In this document: positions 15,914 to 64,000 of the stretch, one piece after another | Layout of the letters: the number at the start of each line of letters is the position of its first letter | How positions within the stretch are numbered: position 1 is the first letter of the stretch | DNA from: Gemmatimonadota bacterium | Lineage (GTDB): Bacteria > Gemmatimonadota > Gemmatimonadetes > Gemmatimonadales > Gemmatimonadaceae | Reading direction: 5' to 3' | DNA: 64,000 nt | NCBI GenBank assembly: GCA_040388625.1 | Contig: JAZKBK010000006.1 | Location: 420,702 to 484,701, forward strand | Notes under the pieces: model-generated | What the model was told of the DNA's origin: nothing | Seen by the model: the letters and a program-made list of their open reading frames with translations, nothing else | Database searches by the model: none | Program-made: the position numbers and the translations under genes

Positions 15914-18037
15914 AATCGGCGCGCGGCAACGTTCACCAACGCGCTGTTGCTGCTATCGACACTGTGCGCATCGCCGCTACTCGCACAGCAGCACCGCGTC
16001 ACCATCACTGTGGATCCTCGTGATTCGATAGCCGCTTTCGATCCAATCATCGCGCTCGGCTCGACCATCGACGGGCACAACGAGGACGCGACGCGCCACA
16101 TCTTCACGCGAGCGAACGTGTCGGCGATGAAGTCGGTGAACTTTCACCCGATATCGTACCGCCTTCGCACCGAGCTCGGCATCGAGGCCTGGCACTGGAA
16201 TCCGCGCGGGCGCTGGAGCGATCCCAACCATCGACAGGGCTACTGGACGTCCGCCGATACGATCGGATCCCCGATAACGGTGTCTTATGGCTACCGATTA
16301 CCGCGGCGCGGCAATACGATCGATCAGGCCAACGACGAGGGCTATTCGCGTCTGACCGACGGCGATACCACGTCATTCTGGAAGAGCAACCCGTATCTGG
16401 ATTCGCGCTATACTCGCGAGCCAGGCGCGAGTCATCCGCAATGGGCGATCGTCGATCTCGAGCACAATGAATCGATCGACGCGGTGCGGATAATGTGGGG
16501 GACGCCGTACGCAACGAGCTACGACGTTCAGTACTGGGAAGGCGAACAGCCCAAAGGTCCGGACGACAACGCAGACGACACCGGGTGGCGCACAGTCACC
16601 GACGGAGCAATACGGGGCGGCAACGGTGGTGACGTAACGCTCGATCTGGCGCGACGTCCCACCACCACGCGCTGGATACGGATCCTGCTGCGCACGAGCT
16701 CCGGCCGCGCGCCGGCTGGCTCGACCGACGTGCGCGATGGGCTCGGCTTTGCGATGCGTGAGATCTATGTGGGTAGAATCGAACACGGAAGCTTCCGCGA
16801 GGTTACTCGACACGCTCCGGATCCGAGCGCTCAGAGTCGCACGTATGTATCCAGCACCGATCCGTGGCATCGCGAAGTTGACCGCGATGAGGGAACCGAG
16901 CAGCCTGGCATCGACCTCGTGTTCGCGAGTGGAATCACGCGCGGATTGCCGATGCTCACGCCGGTCGGCGTGCTGTACGATACACCGGCGAATGCAGCTG
17001 CGCTGCTTCGCTATGTGCGCAGGCGACGCTACCCGATCCCGCGCATCGAGCTGGGCGAGGAACCCGACGGTCAGTTCGTATCACCGCTCGACTTTGCCGC
17101 ACTGTACGCGCAGGTAGCCGACTCGTTGCGCGCAGTCGATTCGAACATCGCACTCGGCGGTCCGTCGCTGCAGGACGCGCGCACCAAGGTCATGATGGCA
17201 TGGAAGGAAGGCGATTCGGACGAGCGGTCATGGCTGGCTCGTTTCGTCGCGGCTCTTACGATGCACGGGCATGCGCGCGACCTCGGCTTCGTTTCGTTCG
17301 AGTTCTATCCATTCGATGACGCGTGCTCCGGAAGCGCCCCGCAGCTCGCGCAGGTAGCGCGAAAGATACGCACCGCTGTGGCGCAGTTCCGCAGTGACGG
17401 CGTACCCGAAGACGTCCCGCTATTGATGACCGAATACGGCTACTCGCCGTTCTCGACGGCGTCCGAGATGAATCGCGCTGGCGCCCTTCTCAACACGATG
17501 GCGGTCGCCGAGTTCCTCGCTGACGGAGGCTCACAGGCATTCTTCTATGGAACTGAGCCAAGCAGTCTCGATCGTGGTGCAGCCTGTGATAGCTGGGGAG
17601 ACAATACGCTGTTTGTCGCGGACGACGACCGTCACATCCTCGCGAAGAACTCGACGTATCATGCGGCGCACATGCTCACAACACTATGGGCAGACTCGGC
17701 CGGCGGCCGACATAGCGTACTCGCGACGAAGGTGACGGCGGCGGCCGCTACTGCACCGCCGATCGCTTCGTACACGTTGCGTCGTCCTGATGGACGGATC
17801 GCGGTGCTGATCACGAATCGCGATCCCGCGAATTCCTGGACCGCCGACATTCGCGGAGTCGGCGACGCGCACGCGACATTCGACGTATGGCGATTCTCTG
17901 CCGCGGAATACACGTGGCACCCGAATGGCGCCGACGGGTTCGCGAAGCCCAACACAGGACCGCTGAAGATGAGTGTCAGCGCGGGTGAGACGCTGACGTT
18001 GCCGCCGTATTCGATTGTAGTGGTGCGTCAGCGCTGA
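15908..18037 (+). CDS. Secreted clan GH-A-like glycoside hydrolase with discoidin-like insert
   Basis: This 709-residue exported protein begins with a signal peptide (TNALLLLSTLCASPLLAQ). Residues of about 130-270 look like an F5/8 type C (discoidin) module: DEGYSRLTDGDTTSFWKSN, QWAIVDLEHNESIDAVRIMW and RWIRILLRT. The TIM-barrel part has GEEPDG at 383-388 in the place of the clan GH-A acid/base NEP motif, and MTEYGYS with Glu509 as candidate nucleophile. A beta-sandwich follows at the C-terminus. The organisation recalls GH39/GH51/GH79-type enzymes, but the family and substrate are uncertain. The chosen ATG lies inside a REP-like repeat; no good Shine-Dalgarno is seen. Confidence 0.78.
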   Translation: MTNRRAATFTNALLLLSTLCASPLLAQQHRVTITVDPRDSIAAFDPIIALGSTIDGHNEDATRHIFTRANVSAMKSVNFHPISYRLRTELGIEAWHWNPRGRWSDPNHRQGYWTSADTIGSPITVSYGYRLPRRGNTIDQANDEGYSRLTDGDTTSFWKSNPYLDSRYTREPGASHPQWAIVDLEHNESIDAVRIMWGTPYATSYDVQYWEGEQPKGPDDNADDTGWRTVTDGAIRGGNGGDVTLDLARRPTTTRWIRILLRTSSGRAPAGSTDVRDGLGFAMREIYVGRIEHGSFREVTRHAPDPSAQSRTYVSSTDPWHREVDRDEGTEQPGIDLVFASGITRGLPMLTPVGVLYDTPANAAALLRYVRRRRYPIPRIELGEEPDGQFVSPLDFAALYAQVADSLRAVDSNIALGGPSLQDARTKVMMAWKEGDSDERSWLARFVAALTMHGHARDLGFVSFEFYPFDDACSGSAPQLAQVARKIRTAVAQFRSDGVPEDVPLLMTEYGYSPFSTASEMNRAGALLNTMAVAEFLADGGSQAFFYGTEPSSLDRGAACDSWGDNTLFVADDDRHILAKNSTYHAAHMLTTLWADSAGGRHSVLATKVTAAAATAPPIASYTLRRPDGRIAVLITNRDPANSWTADIRGVGDAHATFDVWRFSAAEYTWHPNGADGFAKPNTGPLKMSVSAGETLTLPPYSIVVVRQR

Positions 18038-54117: not shown

Positions 54118-55101
54118 GTGACCGAGCATGGGGTGGAAGCGCCGAGGGACATCGAAAGTCGCGTCAAGGCGCGCGCGCGGCAGCTCGGCTTCGATCTCGT
54201 CGGAATCGCGACGCTGGGCGAAGTCGAAACTGCGGATCACTTCGACGAATGGATCGCCGCCCGTTACGCCGGCGAGATGGGATATCTGGAGCGCGGCGCC
54301 GAGAAGCGTCGCGACACGCGGAGGCCGTTCGAGGGAGTACGGAGCGCAGTCGTCGTCGCGATGAATTACGGCGGGACGCAGCCGCCCGGTCCCGTAGCGC
54401 GCTACGCGCGCGGCGACGATTACCACGATCTGATGATCGGCAGGCTGAACGAGCTGCACCGCTGGATCGAGGTTGAGACAGGTCGCCCTGTCCGCGGCAA
54501 GCCGTATGTCGATACTGGCCCGATACTCGAGCGCGATCTCGCGCGACGCGCTGGACTCGGCTGGTTCGGAAAGAACACAAATCTCATCAATCCGGAGATT
54601 GGCTCTTTCTTCTTTCTGGGCGAGCTGTTGCTGGATCTCGAGCTGCGTGCTGACGATCCATTCGAGATGGACCGTTGCGGGAGTTGCACGCGATGTCTCG
54701 ATGCGTGCCCGACCGACGCGTTCGTCGCGCCGCGGGTGCTGGACGCGACGAGATGTATTTCATATCAGACGATCGAGCAGAAGGGGCCGATTGCGGAGAC
54801 GCTACGCGAAGCGATCGGCGAGCACCTGTACGGGTGCGACGTGTGTCAGGAGGTGTGCCCGTGGAACGTGAAGTTCTCGAGGGATGCGACGGAGCCGTCG
54901 TTTGCGGCGCGTGAAGTCATCGCGGGTAAGGATGCGCAGACGTTGGCGACGGAAGTGCTCGCGATGGAGCAGGAGGAGTTCAGCGCGGCGTTTCGGAAGT
55001 CGCCGATGAAGCGTGCGAAACTCGCGGGTTTGCAGAGGAATGCGGCGGTGGTGCTTGAGAACGGGGACGGAGTGGGGACGGACTCCGCACGGGATTCATG
55101 A
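54118..55101 (+). CDS. queG: Epoxyqueuosine reductase
   Basis: This 327-residue enzyme performs the last step of queuosine tRNA modification, reducing epoxyqueuosine with a cobalamin cofactor and two [4Fe-4S] clusters. The clusters are seen in CGSCTRCLDACPTDAF with RCISYQTIEQ, and in GCDVCQEVCPWN. GLGWFGKNTNLINPE and YVDTGPILERDLA are family motifs. The GTG start lies nine bases after the upstream stop. The end of the protein (GDGVGTDSARDS) falls inside one arm of a 25-base inverted repeat, so the last few residues may have been altered by its insertion. A second, broken copy of the C-terminal part lies at 58167-58415. Confidence 0.95.
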   Translation: MTEHGVEAPRDIESRVKARARQLGFDLVGIATLGEVETADHFDEWIAARYAGEMGYLERGAEKRRDTRRPFEGVRSAVVVAMNYGGTQPPGPVARYARGDDYHDLMIGRLNELHRWIEVETGRPVRGKPYVDTGPILERDLARRAGLGWFGKNTNLINPEIGSFFFLGELLLDLELRADDPFEMDRCGSCTRCLDACPTDAFVAPRVLDATRCISYQTIEQKGPIAETLREAIGEHLYGCDVCQEVCPWNVKFSRDATEPSFAAREVIAGKDAQTLATEVLAMEQEEFSAAFRKSPMKRAKLAGLQRNAAVVLENGDGVGTDSARDS

Positions 55102-55355
55102 TACCCGTCGGTAAACGCTAGGCCCGCCGTGGAACGTTCTGTGCGATACAGGTACGGTGCGTGGTGAACCACCGCATGACGTTCATCAGTGGATTCCTGT
55201 GATCCTTGGCGCGACGAACTCGCAAACGTAAATTGCCCGCGGAGCAACGCCTCACAGATCGCGAGCGCTGCTGCTGACCGGCGAGATTGGAGTCGAATTC
55301 GGTTGAATTCCGAAACCGGAGCCGCGAGTTCGGAGTCCGTCCCTACTCCGTCCCC
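55063..55355. repeat. 25-base inverted repeat flanking the queG 3' end
   Basis: The arms are 55063-55087 (GGGGACGGAGTGGGGACG then GACTCCG) and 55331-55355, reverse complements with one mismatch. Between them lie 243 bases without a gene, the gap between queG and the convergent kinase. The core GGAGTCCGTCCC also recurs near 58079 and in reverse near 58045-58060, so it is a small local repeat family. No target-site duplication or transposase was seen. Confidence 0.7.
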
Positions 55356-55368
55356 TGGCGGGTCGGGA

Positions 55369-57912
55369 TCACGTGCGAGGCTTGATTGGCCACGGCGTGC
55401 CATACGGGCACCCCGATACACCCATGCGACGCTCCGCGGCGATGAACGCAGGCTCATCTCTGAGTGAATCGAATATCGGAACGCACGGACCGAAGGCCCC
55501 ACCGGCCTGCACGCTCTCCCAGTCGATTCGTTGAATGAGAGTCGCTCGCTGGGCCGGCGGAATCCCGAACGCGAGCGCTGCATCGAGATCATCAAGACTC
55601 ATTGCGTCCCCATGGTGACGCACCCGCTGTTCGTGCGCCAGCTGGATCGCTGCACGCACCCGCTCGGCGTCGCTCCAGCGTCCGGCTGCCGCGTATGCCA
55701 ACACGAGATCGCCCTGAACGTTTGGCAGGGAAGGGTCGCGTCGACGTGCCATCTCCATAGCTGTGACCGCCGAGTCCGCGTGGCCGGTGAACATTTCGGC
55801 CATGGCGATGTCGTGATATGCAGGTGTGAAGGACGAGTCGAGCGCGATCGCTTCACGCGCGGCATTGAGTGCTCCCCGAAAATCGCGCGATGCATAGAGC
55901 GCCTGGTCTACGGTTGCCACAATCACGGGCGAGAGCGGGTCGAGCGCGGCCGCACGCCGTGCCTCCGACAGCGCTTCCGGAATTCTGCCGAGCCACGAGA
56001 GGCTTTCGGCATGCCACTGCAGCGCGGTCGGATCGTTGGGCGCGATGGCCAACGCCGCGCGGCATTGCGGCTCCGTTTCCGCGACACGCATCAACAACGG
56101 CCCTGCACCGCACAGCGCGATGTGCGCGTCAGCGAGCGTGGAATCGAGCGTCAAGGCATGTCGTGCGCTGGCGATGGCGAGGCCGCCGAGCGAATCGGGG
56201 TCCATTGGCACGTAGTCGGGAAGGACGGCGTATGCCATACTGAGCCCGGCGTAGGCCCGCGCGAAGTGCGGATCGCGCGCGATCGACTGCTTGAAGTAGC
56301 CGATCGAGCGGAGAAGGTTCGCACCGCCGCGCTTCTCCCAGAAGAAGCGCCCCTTGAGGTAGAGATCGTACGCGGCCAGGTCGGTCGTTCCGCGGCTCGA
56401 GTCGGCGACTGTCGCCGCAGCCGTGCCGCGAAGCGCCGGCTCCAGCGCTTGCACAATCTGCTTTGTGAACTGGTCCTGCACCTGGAACACGTCGGTTGCG
56501 CGGCTCTCGTACGTGTCCGACCACACGACGAGCCCATCCTTCGCGCTCGTCAGTTGCGCGGTGATGCGGAGCCGGTCGCCCGAGCGCTGCAGGGTACCCT
56601 CAACTATGCCGCCGACGTTCAATGTCCGACCGATCTGCTGCGCTGGCAGCTCCTTCCCCTTGAACGCATACGACGAAGTTCTCCCCGCAACGCGGAGCGA
56701 CGGCAGCCGCGACAGAGCGTGCGCGAGTTCGTCCGTCATCCCGTCCGAGAAGTATTCGTCACTCGCGGCACCACCGACATTCACGAAAGGGAGGACCGCG
56801 ACCGTCGTGATCGCGCGCGCAGCTCCCGCACTCGCGGAATCGGTGGCCGAGGACGCGGGCACAGAGGTGTGATTCAGCGCCTGCGTACGGCGGCTCCATC
56901 CAAGCAGCAGGACGCCGGTGAGGACCAGCGCGCCCAGGGCCGCAACTGCCACGCGCCGTCCGTAGCTCGCGCGCGGCGCGTCCCCGGATCTGCGCACACC
57001 CGCAGACGCCGTACGTTGCACATCCGGCATTTCAATCAACGCTGGAGATTCGAGTGCAGTGACAATCCCGGTTGCGCTCGCGACACGTGCACCTGGATCC
57101 TTCTCGATGCAACGCATCACGAGCGCTCCGAGCGATGGCGGGACGCCCGGTGCGCGCACGGACAGCGGCACCGGCGCTTCGGCAATCTGCGCAGCGATGA
57201 GCTGCTGCGCGGTCGCCTTCCCCGCGAACGGATGCACACCCGCGAGCAACTCGTACGCAACGACGCCCCACGCATAAATGTCCGCGCGCGCATCCACGGG
57301 ATCCCCCACGGCCTGCTCCGGCGCCATGTACGCGGGAGTGCCGAGCGAGGTGCCGACCACGGTGAGTGTTCCACCAGGCGCCTGCGTCTTCGATGCGCTG
57401 ACTGCCTTGGCGATTCCGAAATCCGTGACCACCGCGGCTCCGCCTGAGAGCAGCACGTTTTCGGGCTTTATGTCGCGATGCACAACTCCGCGTGCGTGCG
57501 CGTAGGCGAGCGCGCGCGCCACATCACGCAGAATCGCGACAGATTCACCGAGCGGGAGTGGCGCTGCTGCCGCACGCGCGACGAGCCGCGCGCGGAGCGA
57601 CTCGCCGTCGACGTAAGGCATCGTATAGTACGGGAGCGCGGGATCGCCGTCGCTCGGCGCAATCTCGCCTGCATCAATGACGGGGACAATGTTGGCCTGC
57701 TGCAACTGCGCGGCGAGTTTGATCTCGCGCTCGAACCGCTCGGCGCTCAGGCCGACGGCCAGCTCATGGGTGAGAACCTTGATAACCACGGTGCGGCCGA
57801 AGCGCGTCTCTTCGGCCACAAAAACGCGCGACATTCCGCCACCACCGAGCTCGCGGTCGATGCGGTAGCGTCCGGCGAGCGCGCCGAGCAGACGATTCTC
57901 AACAGATGTCAA
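55369..57912 (-). CDS. Membrane Ser/Thr protein kinase with TolB/FlgO-like and TPR domains
   Basis: This 847-residue kinase has a glycine loop GGGGMSRV at 23-30, Lys45 (VVIKVL), HRDIKPEN at 145-152 and DFG at 164-166. A transmembrane segment (ALGALVLTGVLLLGW) follows the kinase. The outer part begins with a TolB-like/FlgO domain (TVAVLPFVNVGGAASDEYF, SDGMTDELAHALSRLPSLRV) and then TPR helices (IARDPHFARAYAGLSMAYAV). The C-terminus (MGVSGCPYGTPWPI) resembles that of the kinase at 1591-4017. It starts at a TTG with GGGAG upstream. It is convergent with queG and has no adjacent sigma gene. Confidence 0.95.
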   Translation of the reverse strand: MTSVENRLLGALAGRYRIDRELGGGGMSRVFVAEETRFGRTVVIKVLTHELAVGLSAERFEREIKLAAQLQQANIVPVIDAGEIAPSDGDPALPYYTMPYVDGESLRARLVARAAAAPLPLGESVAILRDVARALAYAHARGVVHRDIKPENVLLSGGAAVVTDFGIAKAVSASKTQAPGGTLTVVGTSLGTPAYMAPEQAVGDPVDARADIYAWGVVAYELLAGVHPFAGKATAQQLIAAQIAEAPVPLSVRAPGVPPSLGALVMRCIEKDPGARVASATGIVTALESPALIEMPDVQRTASAGVRRSGDAPRASYGRRVAVAALGALVLTGVLLLGWSRRTQALNHTSVPASSATDSASAGAARAITTVAVLPFVNVGGAASDEYFSDGMTDELAHALSRLPSLRVAGRTSSYAFKGKELPAQQIGRTLNVGGIVEGTLQRSGDRLRITAQLTSAKDGLVVWSDTYESRATDVFQVQDQFTKQIVQALEPALRGTAAATVADSSRGTTDLAAYDLYLKGRFFWEKRGGANLLRSIGYFKQSIARDPHFARAYAGLSMAYAVLPDYVPMDPDSLGGLAIASARHALTLDSTLADAHIALCGAGPLLMRVAETEPQCRAALAIAPNDPTALQWHAESLSWLGRIPEALSEARRAAALDPLSPVIVATVDQALYASRDFRGALNAAREAIALDSSFTPAYHDIAMAEMFTGHADSAVTAMEMARRRDPSLPNVQGDLVLAYAAAGRWSDAERVRAAIQLAHEQRVRHHGDAMSLDDLDAALAFGIPPAQRATLIQRIDWESVQAGGAFGPCVPIFDSLRDEPAFIAAERRMGVSGCPYGTPWPIKPRT

Positions 57913-58044: not shown

Positions 58045-58095
58045 GGGAACGGACGGCTCCGCCGCATCGCCGACGGCTGGAGTCCGTCCCCTGGC
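58045..58095. repeat. Further copies of the GGAGTCCGTCCCC motif
   Basis: GGAGTCCGTCCCCTGGC (58079-58095) matches the forward arm near 55345-55359 in 14 of 15 shared bases, and a degenerate reverse copy lies at 58045-58060, so the pair could form a stem-loop. They sit in the upstream region of the kinase at 55369-57912. Confidence 0.5.
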
Positions 58096-58166
58096 TGGTG
58101 GCAGCGAGCTAAACCTCTGTCGTAGAAAGAGTTCGGCGCCCGCTCGAGAGCGGGATTTCAAAATGG

Positions 58167-58415
58167 GTGTATCGGCACACGTCCCAGGACGTGTGTTCGT
58201 GGAATGTGAAGTTTTCGCGGGATGCGACGGAGAGTGGGTTTGCGGCGCGTGAGGTGATCGCCGGGAAGGATGCGCTTGCACTCGCGACAGATCTGCTCGC
58301 GATGTCGCAGGAAGAGTTCAGCAGCGCGTTCCGTAAATCACCGATGAAGCGTGCGAAGCTCGCAGGGCTGCAGCGCAATGCGCGCGTGGTGGTCGATGGC
58401 GCTGACCACATCTGA
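58167..58415 (+). pseudogene. Remnant of a second queG C-terminus
   Basis: From SWNVKFSRDATE to AGLQRNA the frame matches the C-terminal part of the queG product: 54 of 63 aligned residues are identical by my count, from CPWN of queG onward. The cluster-binding cysteines upstream (GCDVC) are replaced by RHTS with one residue lost, and nothing homologous precedes about 58165. It has no Shine-Dalgarno and no catalytic part, so it cannot work as QueG. Many codon differences to queG are silent, which indicates divergence while still functional, before truncation. Like queG it faces a kinase gene tail to tail (58541-61222), in the same arrangement as queG and the kinase at 55369. Confidence 0.85.
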
Positions 58416-58540: not shown

Positions 58541-61222
58541 TCATTGTTTCGCGAGTTGCGTCCAGTCCTGGATCAGCGTGAGCGGCACCGGACCGGCCGC
58601 ATTGCCGGAGACCAGCAGCAGTCGCCCGTCAGCCGCGACGTCGACGCTTGTGAGGTTTCCCGGGGCACCAGGAACAGCTTTGGGGATTCCTGCGCGCAGC
58701 TCCGGCCCGTCATCAATTGACGAGGACATGAGCGTGCCTGATGCGGAGATGAAATACAGCGTGCGTCCATCAGGACTCCAGGCGGCGCCATTTAGCGTTG
58801 GTTTGTTGAGGAAAGACTCCGACACCTGCACGCTGGCTGTGCCTGATCCCAGCCGGGCGACGCAAAGCCGAGGCTGAGCGTCGTTCTTCATGGTCAGGTA
58901 GTAAGCGATCAACCGCCCGTCAGGCGATGCACGCTCTCCGATCTCGTCTGCGGGCGTTACAATGACCGGGGACGGCGTGACGGTGTTGCCCGAGATGTCC
59001 AGTCGTTCAATGTCCCACCCGGTTCCCGCCACCTGCACATCGGCAACGATGGACCTGCCGTCGGGCGACCAGTCTATGAGGAAGTGCGCCGAGCCGTGCG
59101 TGAACCTGAGCTGCTTTGGCGGCGAGCCATCGACCGGCGTGATCGCGATAGTTCGCTCGTCCGGCCCTGGTGTCGCCACCGTGCGACCGTCGTGCGACCA
59201 CAGGCCCAGATAGTCAGCGGGTACGTCGCCAACCAGCTGGTTCCACATCGCGCCATCAGCCCTGAACAGCGACAGCGCGCGCGTCTGGCCGGGCTCTGGC
59301 TGTCTGATGCCCACGACATATTGTCCGTCGGGCGAGACGCGTGCATTTCCAACGGCGGCATGCGCAACCAATACCGTGGTCGTGTTCACTTTCGGATCGA
59401 ACCAGTCGAGGCTGGCGTCCACGAGCCCCAATCCACGAAAGACGAGCATACCCGACGTCGACGCAGTAAAGTTGCCGTCGATGCGGAACTCGTTCGTCTC
59501 CAGTTCGGGCACCACCGCAGCCGGGCGGCCCGACAGCTTGATGCGCCCGGGATCAAACGGCTGAGCCATCAGCAGCCCGCCGCGCGTATACAGCAGGCGT
59601 CCGTCGGCGTATGTCACGTTGGAAGGCACATCGAGCAGTTGCCGGCTCGTCAGGCTGCCCAGCTCAGCCACACGCTCAACGCCAGCCCAAGCGGCGCCAT
59701 TTCCTTCGGCGTAGAGGAAATGACGGCCATCTGGAAGGAAATAGGGATTGCGGTCGGTCACGATCCCGCCAGGCGCAGCGGTGATGACGGGCTTTGTAGC
59801 GGGCTTCGCGGCACCACCGTCGGCGGCGACCTGATACAGAGGACCGCCGACGTCGGGAGCAAACACGATGGTACCGTCGCTGCCCCAGCTCCCGCCGCGA
59901 CCGTTTGCGGCTGGTGCCAGGTCGCGAACGGCGCCGCTCTCAACGTCGATACGCTTGAGATGCGCGCCACCAAAGAAGCCGAGACTGCGGCCGTCCGGCG
60001 ACCAGAAGAAGTAGACCGCGCCCTCGGTGCCGGGCAGCTCCCGCATGCGCCCGGTGCTGATCGTGCGCACCCACAGCGCGGTCACGCCGTCGCAGGTCGC
60101 TGTGAAGGCGAGCGATGCGCCATCGCTGGTCAATTGAACGACATTGCCGCCGGCCAGCTCAACGAAGGTGCAGGCGGCGGGCGGGAGAAAGCTGGATTGA
60201 ACTGGCGTACGCGGCTGCGTGCGCGTGAGGGAGCGCGCTGCTACAAAAGCAATGAGCAGAAGCGCGAGCAGCGCGGTGCTGAGTATCCATGGCAGCGCAC
60301 CGTGCCGCTTCGCGAACCGCGAACTGGCTACAGTGCGGCGGCTGCCGGCGCGCGGTTGAACTTCGCCTGCGCCACCCATTGCGGCGGCGAACTCGCTGGC
60401 GGTCGCGAAGCGATCGGCGGGAAGCTTTTCGAGTGCCGTCATTACGGCGTCGTCCGCCGCGGGCGGAATGCTCCTGCGCTGCGCGGTGAGCGCGCGTGGC
60501 TCGGTAGTGATCACCTGTGCTACAATCGCCTGCGCAGTTGATCCAGTGAATGGCGGATCACCGCACAGCATCTCGTACGTCACGGCGCCGAGCGAGTAGA
60601 TATCGGAGCGCGGACCGATCTCACGCTCACCCATTGCCTGCTCGGGCGACATGTACTGCGGCGTGCCGAGCGAGAGACCCGTCTGCGTCATTCGCTGTCC
60701 GCCAGCCTGCTCCACAGCGATCGCGATTCCGAAGTCGGCGACGAGTGCGCGGCCGTCGTGCAGGAGGATGTTTTCGGGCTTGATATCGCGATGCACGACA
60801 CCCCGTTTGTGCGCGTACTCCAGTGCGTCGGCGACCTCGCTCGCGATGCGTATCGCGTCGGCAATCGGGAGCTGGTGCTCGCGCTCGAGCCGGCGCCGGA
60901 GCGTTTCACCCTCCACGTACGGCATCACGTAGTACAGCAGCCCGTCAGCGGATCCTGAGTCGAACAAAGGCAGAATGTGCGGATGCTGCAGGTTCGCCGT
61001 GAGCTCGATCTCTTTCAGAAAGCGTTCGGGCCCGAGAATGGCGGAGAGCTCTGCGTGCAAAACCTTTATGGCAACTTTACGGTGATGCTTGACGTCCTCG
61101 GCGAGATACACCGTGGCCATACCGCCCGCACCCAGCTCGCGCTCGATCCGGTATCTGCCGTCAAGGGACGGCTGGAGCCTCGCTGATAACTGGTCGGTTG
61201 CCGGCTCGGACATGTCGCGCAT
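58541..61222 (-). CDS. Ser/Thr protein kinase with C-terminal PD40 propeller (tandem copy 1)
   Basis: This 893-residue kinase has a glycine loop GAGGMATV at 31-38, Lys53 (AIKVL), HRDIKPEN at 144-151 and DFG at 163-165. A membrane helix (ILSTALLALLLIAFVAARSL) is followed by a TolB-like propeller with PD40 blades (WSPDGRSLGFFG, VSPDGQYVVGI, ASPDGRLIAYY, WSPDGRTLYFIS and others). In the family such propellers are periplasmic and may bind ligands or proteins. The start may be ATG 61222 or 61213. The kinase half is very similar to that of the next gene upstream while the propeller has diverged, indicating tandem duplication followed by sensor divergence. Confidence 0.95.
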   Translation of the reverse strand: MRDMSEPATDQLSARLQPSLDGRYRIERELGAGGMATVYLAEDVKHHRKVAIKVLHAELSAILGPERFLKEIELTANLQHPHILPLFDSGSADGLLYYVMPYVEGETLRRRLEREHQLPIADAIRIASEVADALEYAHKRGVVHRDIKPENILLHDGRALVADFGIAIAVEQAGGQRMTQTGLSLGTPQYMSPEQAMGEREIGPRSDIYSLGAVTYEMLCGDPPFTGSTAQAIVAQVITTEPRALTAQRRSIPPAADDAVMTALEKLPADRFATASEFAAAMGGAGEVQPRAGSRRTVASSRFAKRHGALPWILSTALLALLLIAFVAARSLTRTQPRTPVQSSFLPPAACTFVELAGGNVVQLTSDGASLAFTATCDGVTALWVRTISTGRMRELPGTEGAVYFFWSPDGRSLGFFGGAHLKRIDVESGAVRDLAPAANGRGGSWGSDGTIVFAPDVGGPLYQVAADGGAAKPATKPVITAAPGGIVTDRNPYFLPDGRHFLYAEGNGAAWAGVERVAELGSLTSRQLLDVPSNVTYADGRLLYTRGGLLMAQPFDPGRIKLSGRPAAVVPELETNEFRIDGNFTASTSGMLVFRGLGLVDASLDWFDPKVNTTTVLVAHAAVGNARVSPDGQYVVGIRQPEPGQTRALSLFRADGAMWNQLVGDVPADYLGLWSHDGRTVATPGPDERTIAITPVDGSPPKQLRFTHGSAHFLIDWSPDGRSIVADVQVAGTGWDIERLDISGNTVTPSPVIVTPADEIGERASPDGRLIAYYLTMKNDAQPRLCVARLGSGTASVQVSESFLNKPTLNGAAWSPDGRTLYFISASGTLMSSSIDDGPELRAGIPKAVPGAPGNLTSVDVAADGRLLLVSGNAAGPVPLTLIQDWTQLAKQ

Positions 61223-61284
61223 AATGTACGTTCCCGCGTGTAGCGCCGCTCGCTCGCGACGCGGACCTGCCTACGTAATCCTGT

Positions 61285-63915
61285 TCAGCGCGGAGTCACG
61301 TGCATCACCCACACGTCGCTCTGGCGGTCGTCCACAGTGAAGTACATCCGGCCCGCTCTCAACGCCCACTCGGGCCGGAACGAGCTCTGCGCGGGGTTGT
61401 TCAGCGTCAGCATCAGCCTTGCTGCGCCGCCAGCAACGGGAACGGACCAGAACTGCGCCCTGCCTGCTGCATCGTGTGCCTTGAAATACAGCTCGCGACC
61501 GTCGCTGCTCCAGAACGGCTGCTCGCCGAGCATTCCGTGAGACTTCGCGGGATCGAACACCACCCGCGGTGCGCCTGAATCGGCGTCGACAATGTCCAGC
61601 GCGCCGCCTGTGAAGGTACTTGTAGTGTACGCGATAGAGTGTCCGTCGGGTGACCACGTTGCGTAGCCGCCCTGGCGCGTACGCTGCACGGGTTTGCCCC
61701 AGATTCCGTTGTGGCGCCGCACCACCCAGACGCTTCCCTGCGGACCGAATATGGAGAATGCGAGCGCGTTGCCGTCGGGTGACCACGATGGCTTGGATTC
61801 CTGGAGCGGCGACGACGTGACGCGCTGCACCGCACCTCCGTCCAGCGGCAGCACGTAGATGTCGCGCGATCCGTAACGCCATGAATGAAAGGCGAGCTCG
61901 CGTCCGTCCGGCGACACCGTTGGTGAGAAGTCGTCCGTGGAGTCGAAGGTGAGTTGTTCCGGTGCGCCGCTCGGCAGTCGCTGGCGATACAGCTCCGACG
62001 TCCCGCTCACGTTCGAGTCATAGTACACCCATTTCCCGTCAGGCGAGCCGTCGAACTCCTCGATCACCTGCTGGCCTGTCGTGATCGGCAACGCCGACCT
62101 CGCGTCGACACCGTTCGGAGGGAATGGCAGTGACTGCAGGTTGGCGGTAGCGCTGTACACGTCGTACGCGACCGACTTTCCCTCTGACGAGATGGAAACG
62201 GAGTGCGCGCCGAGTCCGGTGGTGATCCGGATTGCGCGGCCGCTCGCGCGGCCGTCGCGCGCCGTGGGAAGTGCATAGATGTCGAGCGGGCCGAGGCGGT
62301 CGGAGACGAAATACAGCCACTTGCCATCCGGCGACCAGAACGGACTCTGGTTGACGGAGCTGCTGTCGGTGACGGTGGACACCGCGCCGTCGCTCACATC
62401 AACGGTGACGATGCGGCTTGGCGAGAGGTTGCCGAGGAAGCGGCCAAGCTGCGAGTACTCGCGGTTTCCCGAGGCGCAGGCGATCGTTGCGCCATCAGGT
62501 CTCCACTGGCAAGCTGACACCTCTCTGAGACGTGCGAGGAGCCGCGAATGTCCGTCCGCGTCGCGCAGGTACAGCGAGTCGCCGTGTGCGTAAGCAATTC
62601 GCCGGTCGTCGGGTGACCACACGGCATTGGTGATCCGACCATCCGGAGCGGCGCGCATTTCCGGTCGCGGCGATCCGCCCGACGATGGTGCGCTGAACAC
62701 TGCGCCGCCAGCAAGGAACAGGATTCGCGATCCGTCTGCCGACCATTGCGGGTTGGTTTCGACGCTCGTGGAATCATCGGTGAGCTTCACGGCGCGGCCG
62801 CCCGCGACCTGCCGCACGTATATGTGCGTGAGCACGGTGCTGCCACCTGCGTACGCCACGTACTTGCCATCGGGGGAGAGTGCAGGCTGGATCTCGAGTC
62901 CCGGCTCCCACGTCACCTTCCGCGCATTGCCGAACGCGGCGATCGGTGCGTTCGGTCTGTAGTGCTGTCGCGCGATCAGAAATCCGGCGCACCCGAGTGC
63001 GACTGCGCCGACCGCGACAGCAGCGACCCAGAGCGCGGGCATTCCACTCGCCACGTCGGTGCTCGTGCGTCTTCGTACAGCGCCCGTTGTCGTTGTGCCG
63101 GACATTGCGCGCGCGAATTCGGCGGCGCTGTCGAATCTGTCGGCCGGCAGCTTCTCGAGCGCCGTGAGCACCGCATCCTCGACCGCGGGCGGTACGCTGC
63201 GTCGCTGCGGTATAATCGGCGCGGGATCCTGTGTCACGACCTTCGCGACTATTGCCTGCGCACTCGGGCCCGTGAATGGCGGCTCACCGGTGAGCATCTC
63301 GTACGTTACTGCGCCGAGCGAGTAGATGTCCGAGCGCGGACCGACCTCGCGCTCGCCGGTCGCCTGTTCCGGGCTCATGTACTGCGGCGTGCCGAGTGAC
63401 AGTCCCGTCTGCGTCATCCGCTGACCGCCTGCCTGCTGCACGGCCAGTGCAATGCCGAAGTCAGCTACAAGGGCATGTCCGTTCTGGAGCAGAATGTTCT
63501 CAGGCTTTATATCGCGATGCACTACGCCGCGACCGTGTGCGTACTCCAGTGCGTCGGCAACTTCGCTCGCTATTCGAACGGCGTCCGCGATGGAGAGCTG
63601 CTTGTCGCGATCGAGCCGTCCGCGCAGCGTCTCACCATCCACATACGGCATCACGTAGAACAGCAGCCCGTCTGCGCTCCCTGAATCGAATAGCGGAAGA
63701 ATATGTGGATGCTGCAGATTCGCGGTGAGCTCGATCTCCTTGAGGAAGCGCTCGGAGCCGAGGATCGCGGACAGCTCTGCGTGTAGCACCTTGATCGCAA
63801 CCTTGCGATGGTGCTTGATGTCTTCCGCGAGATACACCGTCGCCATGCCACCCGCGCCAAGCTCGCGCTCGACACTGTATCGATCTCCAATTGTCGCTGC
63901 GAGACGAGCTAACAC
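61285..63915 (-). CDS. Ser/Thr protein kinase with C-terminal PD40 propeller (tandem copy 2)
   Basis: From GTG 63915, with GGAG five bases upstream, this 876-residue kinase begins MLARLAATIGDRYSVEREL. It has GAGGMATV at 20-27, Lys42 (AIKVL), HRDIKPEN, DFG and the activation segment LGTPQYMSPEQA. A transmembrane segment (VAAVAVGAVALGCAGFLI) and about ten PD40 blades follow (LSPDGKYVAYAG, WSPDDRRIAYAHG, WSPDGNALAFS, WSPDGHSIAYT). The frame is open to a TTG at 63969, but this has no Shine-Dalgarno and would place a strong hairpin inside the coding region. It is 62 bases upstream of the other PD40 kinase. Confidence 0.93.
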   Translation of the reverse strand: MLARLAATIGDRYSVERELGAGGMATVYLAEDIKHHRKVAIKVLHAELSAILGSERFLKEIELTANLQHPHILPLFDSGSADGLLFYVMPYVDGETLRGRLDRDKQLSIADAVRIASEVADALEYAHGRGVVHRDIKPENILLQNGHALVADFGIALAVQQAGGQRMTQTGLSLGTPQYMSPEQATGEREVGPRSDIYSLGAVTYEMLTGEPPFTGPSAQAIVAKVVTQDPAPIIPQRRSVPPAVEDAVLTALEKLPADRFDSAAEFARAMSGTTTTGAVRRRTSTDVASGMPALWVAAVAVGAVALGCAGFLIARQHYRPNAPIAAFGNARKVTWEPGLEIQPALSPDGKYVAYAGGSTVLTHIYVRQVAGGRAVKLTDDSTSVETNPQWSADGSRILFLAGGAVFSAPSSGGSPRPEMRAAPDGRITNAVWSPDDRRIAYAHGDSLYLRDADGHSRLLARLREVSACQWRPDGATIACASGNREYSQLGRFLGNLSPSRIVTVDVSDGAVSTVTDSSSVNQSPFWSPDGKWLYFVSDRLGPLDIYALPTARDGRASGRAIRITTGLGAHSVSISSEGKSVAYDVYSATANLQSLPFPPNGVDARSALPITTGQQVIEEFDGSPDGKWVYYDSNVSGTSELYRQRLPSGAPEQLTFDSTDDFSPTVSPDGRELAFHSWRYGSRDIYVLPLDGGAVQRVTSSPLQESKPSWSPDGNALAFSIFGPQGSVWVVRRHNGIWGKPVQRTRQGGYATWSPDGHSIAYTTSTFTGGALDIVDADSGAPRVVFDPAKSHGMLGEQPFWSSDGRELYFKAHDAAGRAQFWSVPVAGGAARLMLTLNNPAQSSFRPEWALRAGRMYFTVDDRQSDVWVMHVTPR

Positions 63916-63931
63916 ATCTTCTCCAGAAGGG

Positions 63932-63954
63932 GTCACGGCGCGGTACGCCGTGAC
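63932..63954 (-). repeat. 9-bp hairpin in the leader of the last kinase
   Basis: GTCACGGCG and its exact complement flank a 5-base loop, 17 bases before the proposed GTG start. Such a stem next to the ribosome-binding site could affect translation. It supports rejecting the upstream TTG start, since it would lie within codons 6-13. Confidence 0.5.
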
Positions 63955-64000
63955 AAAAGGCCGGGCCAATCGGCCACAACGCGTAGGTCGGTATGCGCGT

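Follow-up and report, generated by a model that had tools for sequence, protein, structure and literature searches.

A second queG 3′ end in the window

The 64,000-nucleotide stretch of DNA analysed here (the window) carries an intact queG, encoding tRNA epoxyqueuosine reductase (54118-55101, + strand; TIGR00276 at 316 bits, PF08331 and Fe-S domains), and, further along the same strand, a second copy of the 3′ end of that gene. How a gene end comes to lie apart from its gene is the question that this locus raises. The initial annotation had described the QueG C-terminus as repeated 3.3 kb away at about 86% identity without its catalytic part, and both points are borne out. A direct repeat of 212 nt, the longest among 25 direct-repeat families between window positions 52 and 62 kb, joins 54847-55058 and 58185-58396 with 79% nucleotide identity and a spacing of 3338 bp, and the 82-aa ORF at 58167-58415 matches TIGR00276 (QueG) at positions 237-302 only (E 7.9e-6), that is, over the C-terminus alone. 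The displaced 3′ end (58185-58415, +) spans queG codon 244 (CAG) through the stop, with the repeat beginning exactly at CAG in both copies (54847-54849 and 58185-58187); directly upstream of the fragment lies a conserved arm that is not queG sequence.

Separately, a REP-like palindrome (GGGGACGGACTCC and relatives) occurs at window positions 55063-55090, 55328-55355 and about 58072-58099. At ≤1 mismatch it has 24 sites in the genome versus 4 for a reversed control, and one copy overlaps the end of queG, giving the gene its last codons and stop.

The two window tails differ mostly in silent positions. Over 64 aligned codons, 35 are identical, 20 carry silent and 9 replacement changes (86% protein identity), giving dN 0.117 and dS 0.870 (NG86) and a dN/dS of about 0.13, not near one; a 21-codon segment that had been described as mostly silent shows, read by eye, 9 silent changes and 1 replacement. 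The earlier view of divergence under function thus stands, and applies to both tails. If the queG end had been duplicated in place as a segment and the copy had then decayed, this would explain why the copies share a contig and an orientation and lie 3.3 kb apart. A local copy in decay should, however, neither have diverged this far (dS) nor be under such constraint (dN/dS), and an identical breakpoint and upstream arm recur across many genera. We regard this explanation as extremely improbable.

Tail homology starts at one codon, behind a conserved arm

The queG-tail searches covered 60 relatives and 89 genomes of the family Gemmatimonadaceae, 36 of them in both sets, which makes 113 genomes; many of the genomes compared are drafts. 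Wherever a C-terminus-only match shares a contig with queG, it lies downstream of queG and on the same strand (29 of 29). With 46 displaced tails aligned against 40 intact queG sites, tail homology starts at CAG (Gln 244 of the window protein) within the cysteine motif CxxCQxVCPWN. This breakpoint is common to the aligned relatives, and scattered breakpoints along queG were not seen. Upstream of it, intact genes typically read CTGTACGGGTGCGACATCTGC-CAG and displaced tails have the non-coding consensus ATCTCAAAACGGTTATACCGACACATCTCC-CAG. Judged by column conservation, this arm extends to about position -83, a length of about 80 bp, and in the window it occupies 58108-58187 (+), ending in CAG (modelled part 58131-58187).

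We built an arm model on positions -60 to -4, which hold no queG sequence, from 39 sites, none of them in the genus of the window. It gives 62.9 bits at window position 58131 (+) and no more than -7.0 at any other of the roughly 128,000 positions scored in the window; in 20 mononucleotide shuffles of a 66-kb region no score exceeds -3.5. Across 837 kb of regions, which were chosen for queG or tails and include the model's own building sites, 54 sites above 15 bits fall on the queG strand and 0 on the opposite one. Each of the four genomes in the window's genus has exactly one match to a 30-nt arm pattern (≤3 mismatches), the one in the window with 0 mismatches, and the reversed control gives 0 matches. 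Three displaced tails have no recognisable arm: G018b:6931 (-44), G019:44389 (-29) and G006:37294 (-5.7). Visibly degenerate arm sites were left out of the symmetry and RNAalifold work (6 of 45) and of the arm model (4 of 45, still scored). RNAalifold on 39 ungapped arms found no structure, hairpin or attC-like, though small indels could hide one.

A short arm pattern applied phylum-wide with one mismatch matched 14 of 298 genomes; this pattern misses many real sites, that of the window included. A short-pattern scan of named genomes gave ten stretches from assemblies of Gemmatimonadaceae or Gemmatimonas, and another from Oscillospiraceae. Matches in G032, G136, G158, G233, G273, G282 and the Oscillospiraceae stretch we take to be chance or unrelated, with no queG tail in the stretches checked.

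The initial annotation had proposed recombination within queG. Recombination inside the gene is upheld; its homologous version, with exchange at an arbitrary point, is not, since the breakpoint is fixed, and the aligned sites point to site-specific recombination at codon 244. Exchange with related DNA at an arbitrary queG position, whether by homologous recombination or by gene conversion, would accord with mostly silent divergence, and conversion of tails within a genome is possible, given that the displaced tail of G112 groups with that genome's own queG in a tail tree. A fixed CAG breakpoint next to a conserved non-queG arm would be unexpected from such exchange, however, and as the origin of the fragment we find it improbable; homologous exchange may have a secondary effect on tails.

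Large serine recombinase genes face queG in relatives

In G006, G019, G029 and G033, large serine recombinase (LSR) genes face queG directly, accounting for 4 of 22 PF07508 matches in the 60 genomes and the same 4 of 25 in the overlapping 89. The gene in G033 is truncated, its product matching the G029 protein only from residue 226 on. A Pfam scan of three queG-facing LSRs found PF07508 in all three and a passing PF00239 match in two; the three proteins align with conserved RYxRKSTE and SRFGR motifs, which we take to be catalytic, and the nearest solved structures are those of SPbeta YokA, a weak match (E 5e-4). An LSR scan of named species genomes gave 32 candidate stretches, none confirmed, and viral contigs yielded one distant LSR (25% identity) with no arm. 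A recombinase gene at one end, as expected of an LSR island, is thus present in these four relatives and absent from the window genome. That genome has 0 PF07508 matches, so that we infer the agent at the window scar from the relatives.

At the four LSR loci the adjacent queG reads CPYN instead of CPWN, and because of this replacement the site there is symmetric: with CA at the centre, 20, 19, 18 and 17 of 23 positions of the arm consensus agree with the right half read as its reverse complement. By the same count the displaced G033 tail (CPYT) reaches 16, and others range from 7 to 16. We read the arm plus CPYN tail, an inverted repeat around CA, as a putative attP; with the CAG core, it supplies the common core and the inverted repeat around a dinucleotide (17-20 of 23 around CA) that mark LSR islands. 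In the window, a perfect 9-bp inverted repeat read from the sequence, CACACGTCC-CA-GGACGTGTG (58176-58195, no strand), covers the arm/tail junction, and the predicted crossover core is codon 244 of queG (CAG, 54847-54849, +), where the direct repeat starts, the breakpoint of aligned relatives falls and the CA (54847-54848) is the centre of symmetry.

The LSR ORFs run antisense into the queG tail (L031:2619-4787, L035:1567-4035 and L037:15693-17966) and end at different points (722, 822 and 757 aa, respectively); since the frames pass antisense through the tail, the predicted LSR C-termini would change on integration. In G033 and G141 a CPYT or CPYN displaced tail lies beside a recombinase C-terminal remnant (two in G141), an arrangement of sequences which indicates that some displaced tails, at least, derive from earlier recombinase elements.

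Tyrosine integrases typically insert at gene 3′ ends and repair the gene, as would suit a tyrosine recombinase using the queG 3′ end. We consider such an enzyme very unlikely here: between queG and the tail on queG's contig there is no PF00589 match in 12 tail-bearing genomes, and LSR genes adjoin queG in four. As a counterpoint, a queG-tail-like match (49%) on another contig of G002 (G002:C25:334382-334564), a doubtful tail, lies about 1.5 kb from a partial PF00589 (tyrosine integrase) match.

A model of integration at codon 244

The fragment is, in our judgement, very probably the attR scar of site-specific integration into queG at codon 244 by recombinase-borne islands. A circular element would carry attP embedded within its own copy of the queG 3′ end, and the LSR would join attP to attB at codon 244 (CAG, core CA). 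The 5′ part of queG would gain the element's tail of roughly 75 codons and the gene would stay intact; cargo would follow the new tail, and the old tail would land downstream, behind the element's left arm. With queG rebuilt, the site could be used again and elements would stack, leaving displaced tails in a row. For the window, the kinase at 55369-57912 would owe its place between queG and the scar (58108-58415) to the last event, and we read the present queG as a 5′ body with a replacement tail, presumably the attL side. The fragment had earlier been taken for the arriving copy; this is probably reversed, the fragment being the former queG end and the current tail (54850-55101, +) the newer one.

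The features on which this model draws are the common breakpoint, the conserved arm, the orientation, LSR adjacency in relatives and the attP-like symmetry, together with a nested order of units and a discordance between tail and body that are described below. From them we infer that this LSR family made the window scar, in which direction the event ran and that the site is re-used. Counted against the model are the lack of a PF07508 match in the window genome, the CPWN motif of most displaced tails, two results of the comparison with G002 given below (tail identities that do not order the two window tails, and no arm at the edge of the common block), the absence of an expected cassette B in G112, the three armless tails, the truncated LSR of G033 and the draft state of many genomes.

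Kinases around the scar and comparison within the genus

The queG end meets a kinase gene tail to tail in both places, just as first annotated. The PknB-type kinase with a TPR region (55369-57912, -; PF00069 138 bits, TPR matches) is the sole large gene between queG and the scar, and downstream of the scar lies a PknB-type kinase with beta-propeller repeats (58541-61222, -; PF00069, PF07676). A second kinase of the beta-propeller type (61285-63969, -; PF00069, PF07676) belongs to the same kinase run. The suggestion that a kinase had travelled as the fragment's partner did not survive comparison with relatives. G001, which like the sister genome G002 belongs to the genus of the window genome (G000), has no kinase-domain match between queG (end about 9974) and its scar (12350), the contig's only match lying at 17456, and no kinases of the window's kind were matched in the regions read of G006, G029 and G033. 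The intervening kinase is cargo, not partner, and would have arrived with the last insertion; kinases of this kind are cargo in G000 and G141. We read the kinase at 58541-61222 as older cargo or a local paralogue. In the regions read, tblastn gives seven kinase-domain matches for G000 and three for G002, with a single partial one for G001. Several kinase domains of the run that extends from window 58541-63969 onward are 64-84% alike, a hint of local amplification within the island.

In G002, the DNA from about 200 bp after queG (7.6 + 2.7 kb, about 95% identity) corresponds to G000 DNA about 11.6 kb downstream of queG, and the stretch that G000 has in addition contains the TPR kinase together with the scar and other kinases. 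Where the block common to both genomes begins on its left side, the arm model detects no arm. The two queG genes are 94% identical over the 240 bp before the tail and 83% within it; over a longer span there are 61 mismatches in 727 body positions and 36 in 210 tail positions (Fisher p 0.0005), although control pairs attribute part of this excess to generally faster tail evolution. The displaced window tail is no nearer to the G002 tail than the current one (identity 0.79 and 0.83, respectively), and it is therefore integration geometry that decides which window tail we take for the older. Behind the G001 arm only the final codons of the tail remain, which on reading the sequence is an internal deletion.

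Stacked tails and the histories of tail and body

Several genomes carry rows of displaced tails. The search of 60 relatives found six C-terminal queG matches in G006, and G141, which came from the short-pattern scan and was then read, has queG and seven displaced tails within about 71 kb of one 5.18-Mb contig. The fragmented draft G062 has 17 C-terminal matches on six contigs, about 16 separate tails, none of them on queG's contig; several of its tail-bearing contigs start or stop at a tail. Within one genus the units are nested (queG-B in G076, queG-1-A-B in G027 and queG-A in G112), which implies that newer units adjoin queG. A simple series does not explain G112, where another cassette occupies the place expected for B.

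Two further observations concern queG itself. About 450 bp directly 3′ of the gene is common to G021, G030 and G076, which represent three genera, at 74-85%. G068 has two full-length queG matches (G068:C17 and G068:C31), the second equal in bit score to that of G024; this second gene may be contamination or transfer.

Ratios of tail to body divergence were taken from aligned sequences, as one-codon indels inflate an ungapped comparison. The 29 'no tail' control pairs span 0.95-2.03; two of these include scar genomes (G001-G003, 1.43; G017-G068, 1.21), both inside the range. Three of the eight both-tail pairs fall outside the controls (G000-G002, 2.95; G027-G112, 0.48; G076-G112, 0.61), and the other five range from 0.88 to 1.89, one of them just under the control range. 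By this measure of sequence divergence, tail and body of queG have different histories. In the tail tree, where support values are modest and fragments short, the tails of LSR-adjacent queG genes cluster across four host genera, together with G024, G068 and the displaced G033 tail, and most displaced tails group with their host genus.

Most displaced tails read CPWN and LSR-borne tails CPYN. From one event to the next queG may return to a CPWN tail, or else LSR-less CPWN cassettes may move in trans. A reversion to CPWN would fit the queG of G141, where CPWNHKF differs little from the CPYNHKF found in G029 and G033.

Cargo and the possibility of movement in trans

The LSR-bearing islands carry methyltransferases (G029, G006); that of G006 also encodes a DndH-like protein and matches GajA at 880 bits. 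G019 and G033 have cargo blocks of 1.5 and 3 kb in common (87-88%), presumably type I restriction genes, judged from protein starts. Small cassettes in G006 and G027 hold genes for alginate export, a multicopper oxidase, pRiA4b ORF-3, a sulfate permease and FkbM methyltransferases, among others, and one gene-pair cassette is common to G006, G062 and G112 (72-85%).

These small units suggest a variant of the integration model, differing in who moves what: integron-like cassettes without an LSR, each comprising a few genes, the arm and a CPWN tail, would be moved into queG in trans by an LSR that is often absent. Most cassettes have no LSR sequence in the non-overlapping part compared, displaced tails are mostly CPWN, the gene-pair cassette recurs in three genomes, and the tails of genus g25 resemble one another more closely than the queG bodies do (0.48 and 0.61). 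Against it, the LSR remnants beside displaced tails (one in G033, two in G141) point to decayed autonomous elements, and an arm followed by CPWN would be attR-like, whereas serine integrases recombine only attP with attB unless a further factor is present (PMC3783163). We hold this variant to be possible, with the odds against it.

Relation to known systems

In integrons, new units enter beside one fixed end, as small cassettes that each carry a recombination site. The queG locus resembles them in all of these respects and differs in its recombinase, serine and not tyrosine, in line with the absence of PF00589 between queG and tails on queG's contig (12 genomes).

The mode of integration is known, from SCCmec at rlmH and from the Dehalococcoides ssrA islands. 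As in the latter (PMC3146451), a serine recombinase gene (DsiB) lies beside the target on the reverse strand with antisense overlap, direct repeats of the target's 3′ end are stacked downstream (theirs within about 100 kb) and some islands have no integration genes. Their target is a tmRNA gene with a 20-bp repeat (PMC3146451). Here the target is a protein gene, queG and not ssrA, and the repeat, about 230 bp long, replaces some 75 codons; the phylum and cargo also differ. SCCmec and the Enterococcus cassette chromosome (PMC6222049) likewise employ large serine recombinases to insert into the 3′ part of a conserved gene for RNA modification, with inverted-repeat att sites, several attR in one genome and restriction genes as cargo. 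Their att repeats are about 50 bp and their recombinases the pair CcrA/CcrB (PMC6222049); here the repeat is roughly 230 bp, one LSR gene is seen per queG and there are up to seven or more scars. The likeness is in mode: the target is queG and not rlmH, and we claim no membership. Other LSRs are aimed at a single conserved coding site (PMC10083194); the targets named there include magnesium chelatase and prolyl isomerase, and its main text mentions neither queuosine nor Gemmatimonads. For an attachment site in queG, a replacement tail of ~75 codons or this host family we found no report in the literature searched, which mostly excluded subscription papers.

Implications

More tentatively, and as something we think may well not hold, queG could be a self-renewing cassette platform in Gemmatimonadaceae, each integration regenerating the site and swapping the C-terminal quarter of the enzyme, with LSR-less cassettes of arm and CPWN tail stacking by means of a serine recombinase in trans. 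If true, such a platform would keep past acquisitions on record in their order. As integrases, the LSRs are candidates whose genomic target is defined, and a codon-embedded attP that turns CPWN into CPYN in QueG would imply a testable trade-off between enzyme function and site symmetry. For this little-studied phylum, the arm with its displaced tail would mark a hot spot for horizontally acquired genes, among them methyltransferases, a GajA match, a DndH-like protein and kinases, and the order of the tails suggests the relative order in which they were acquired.
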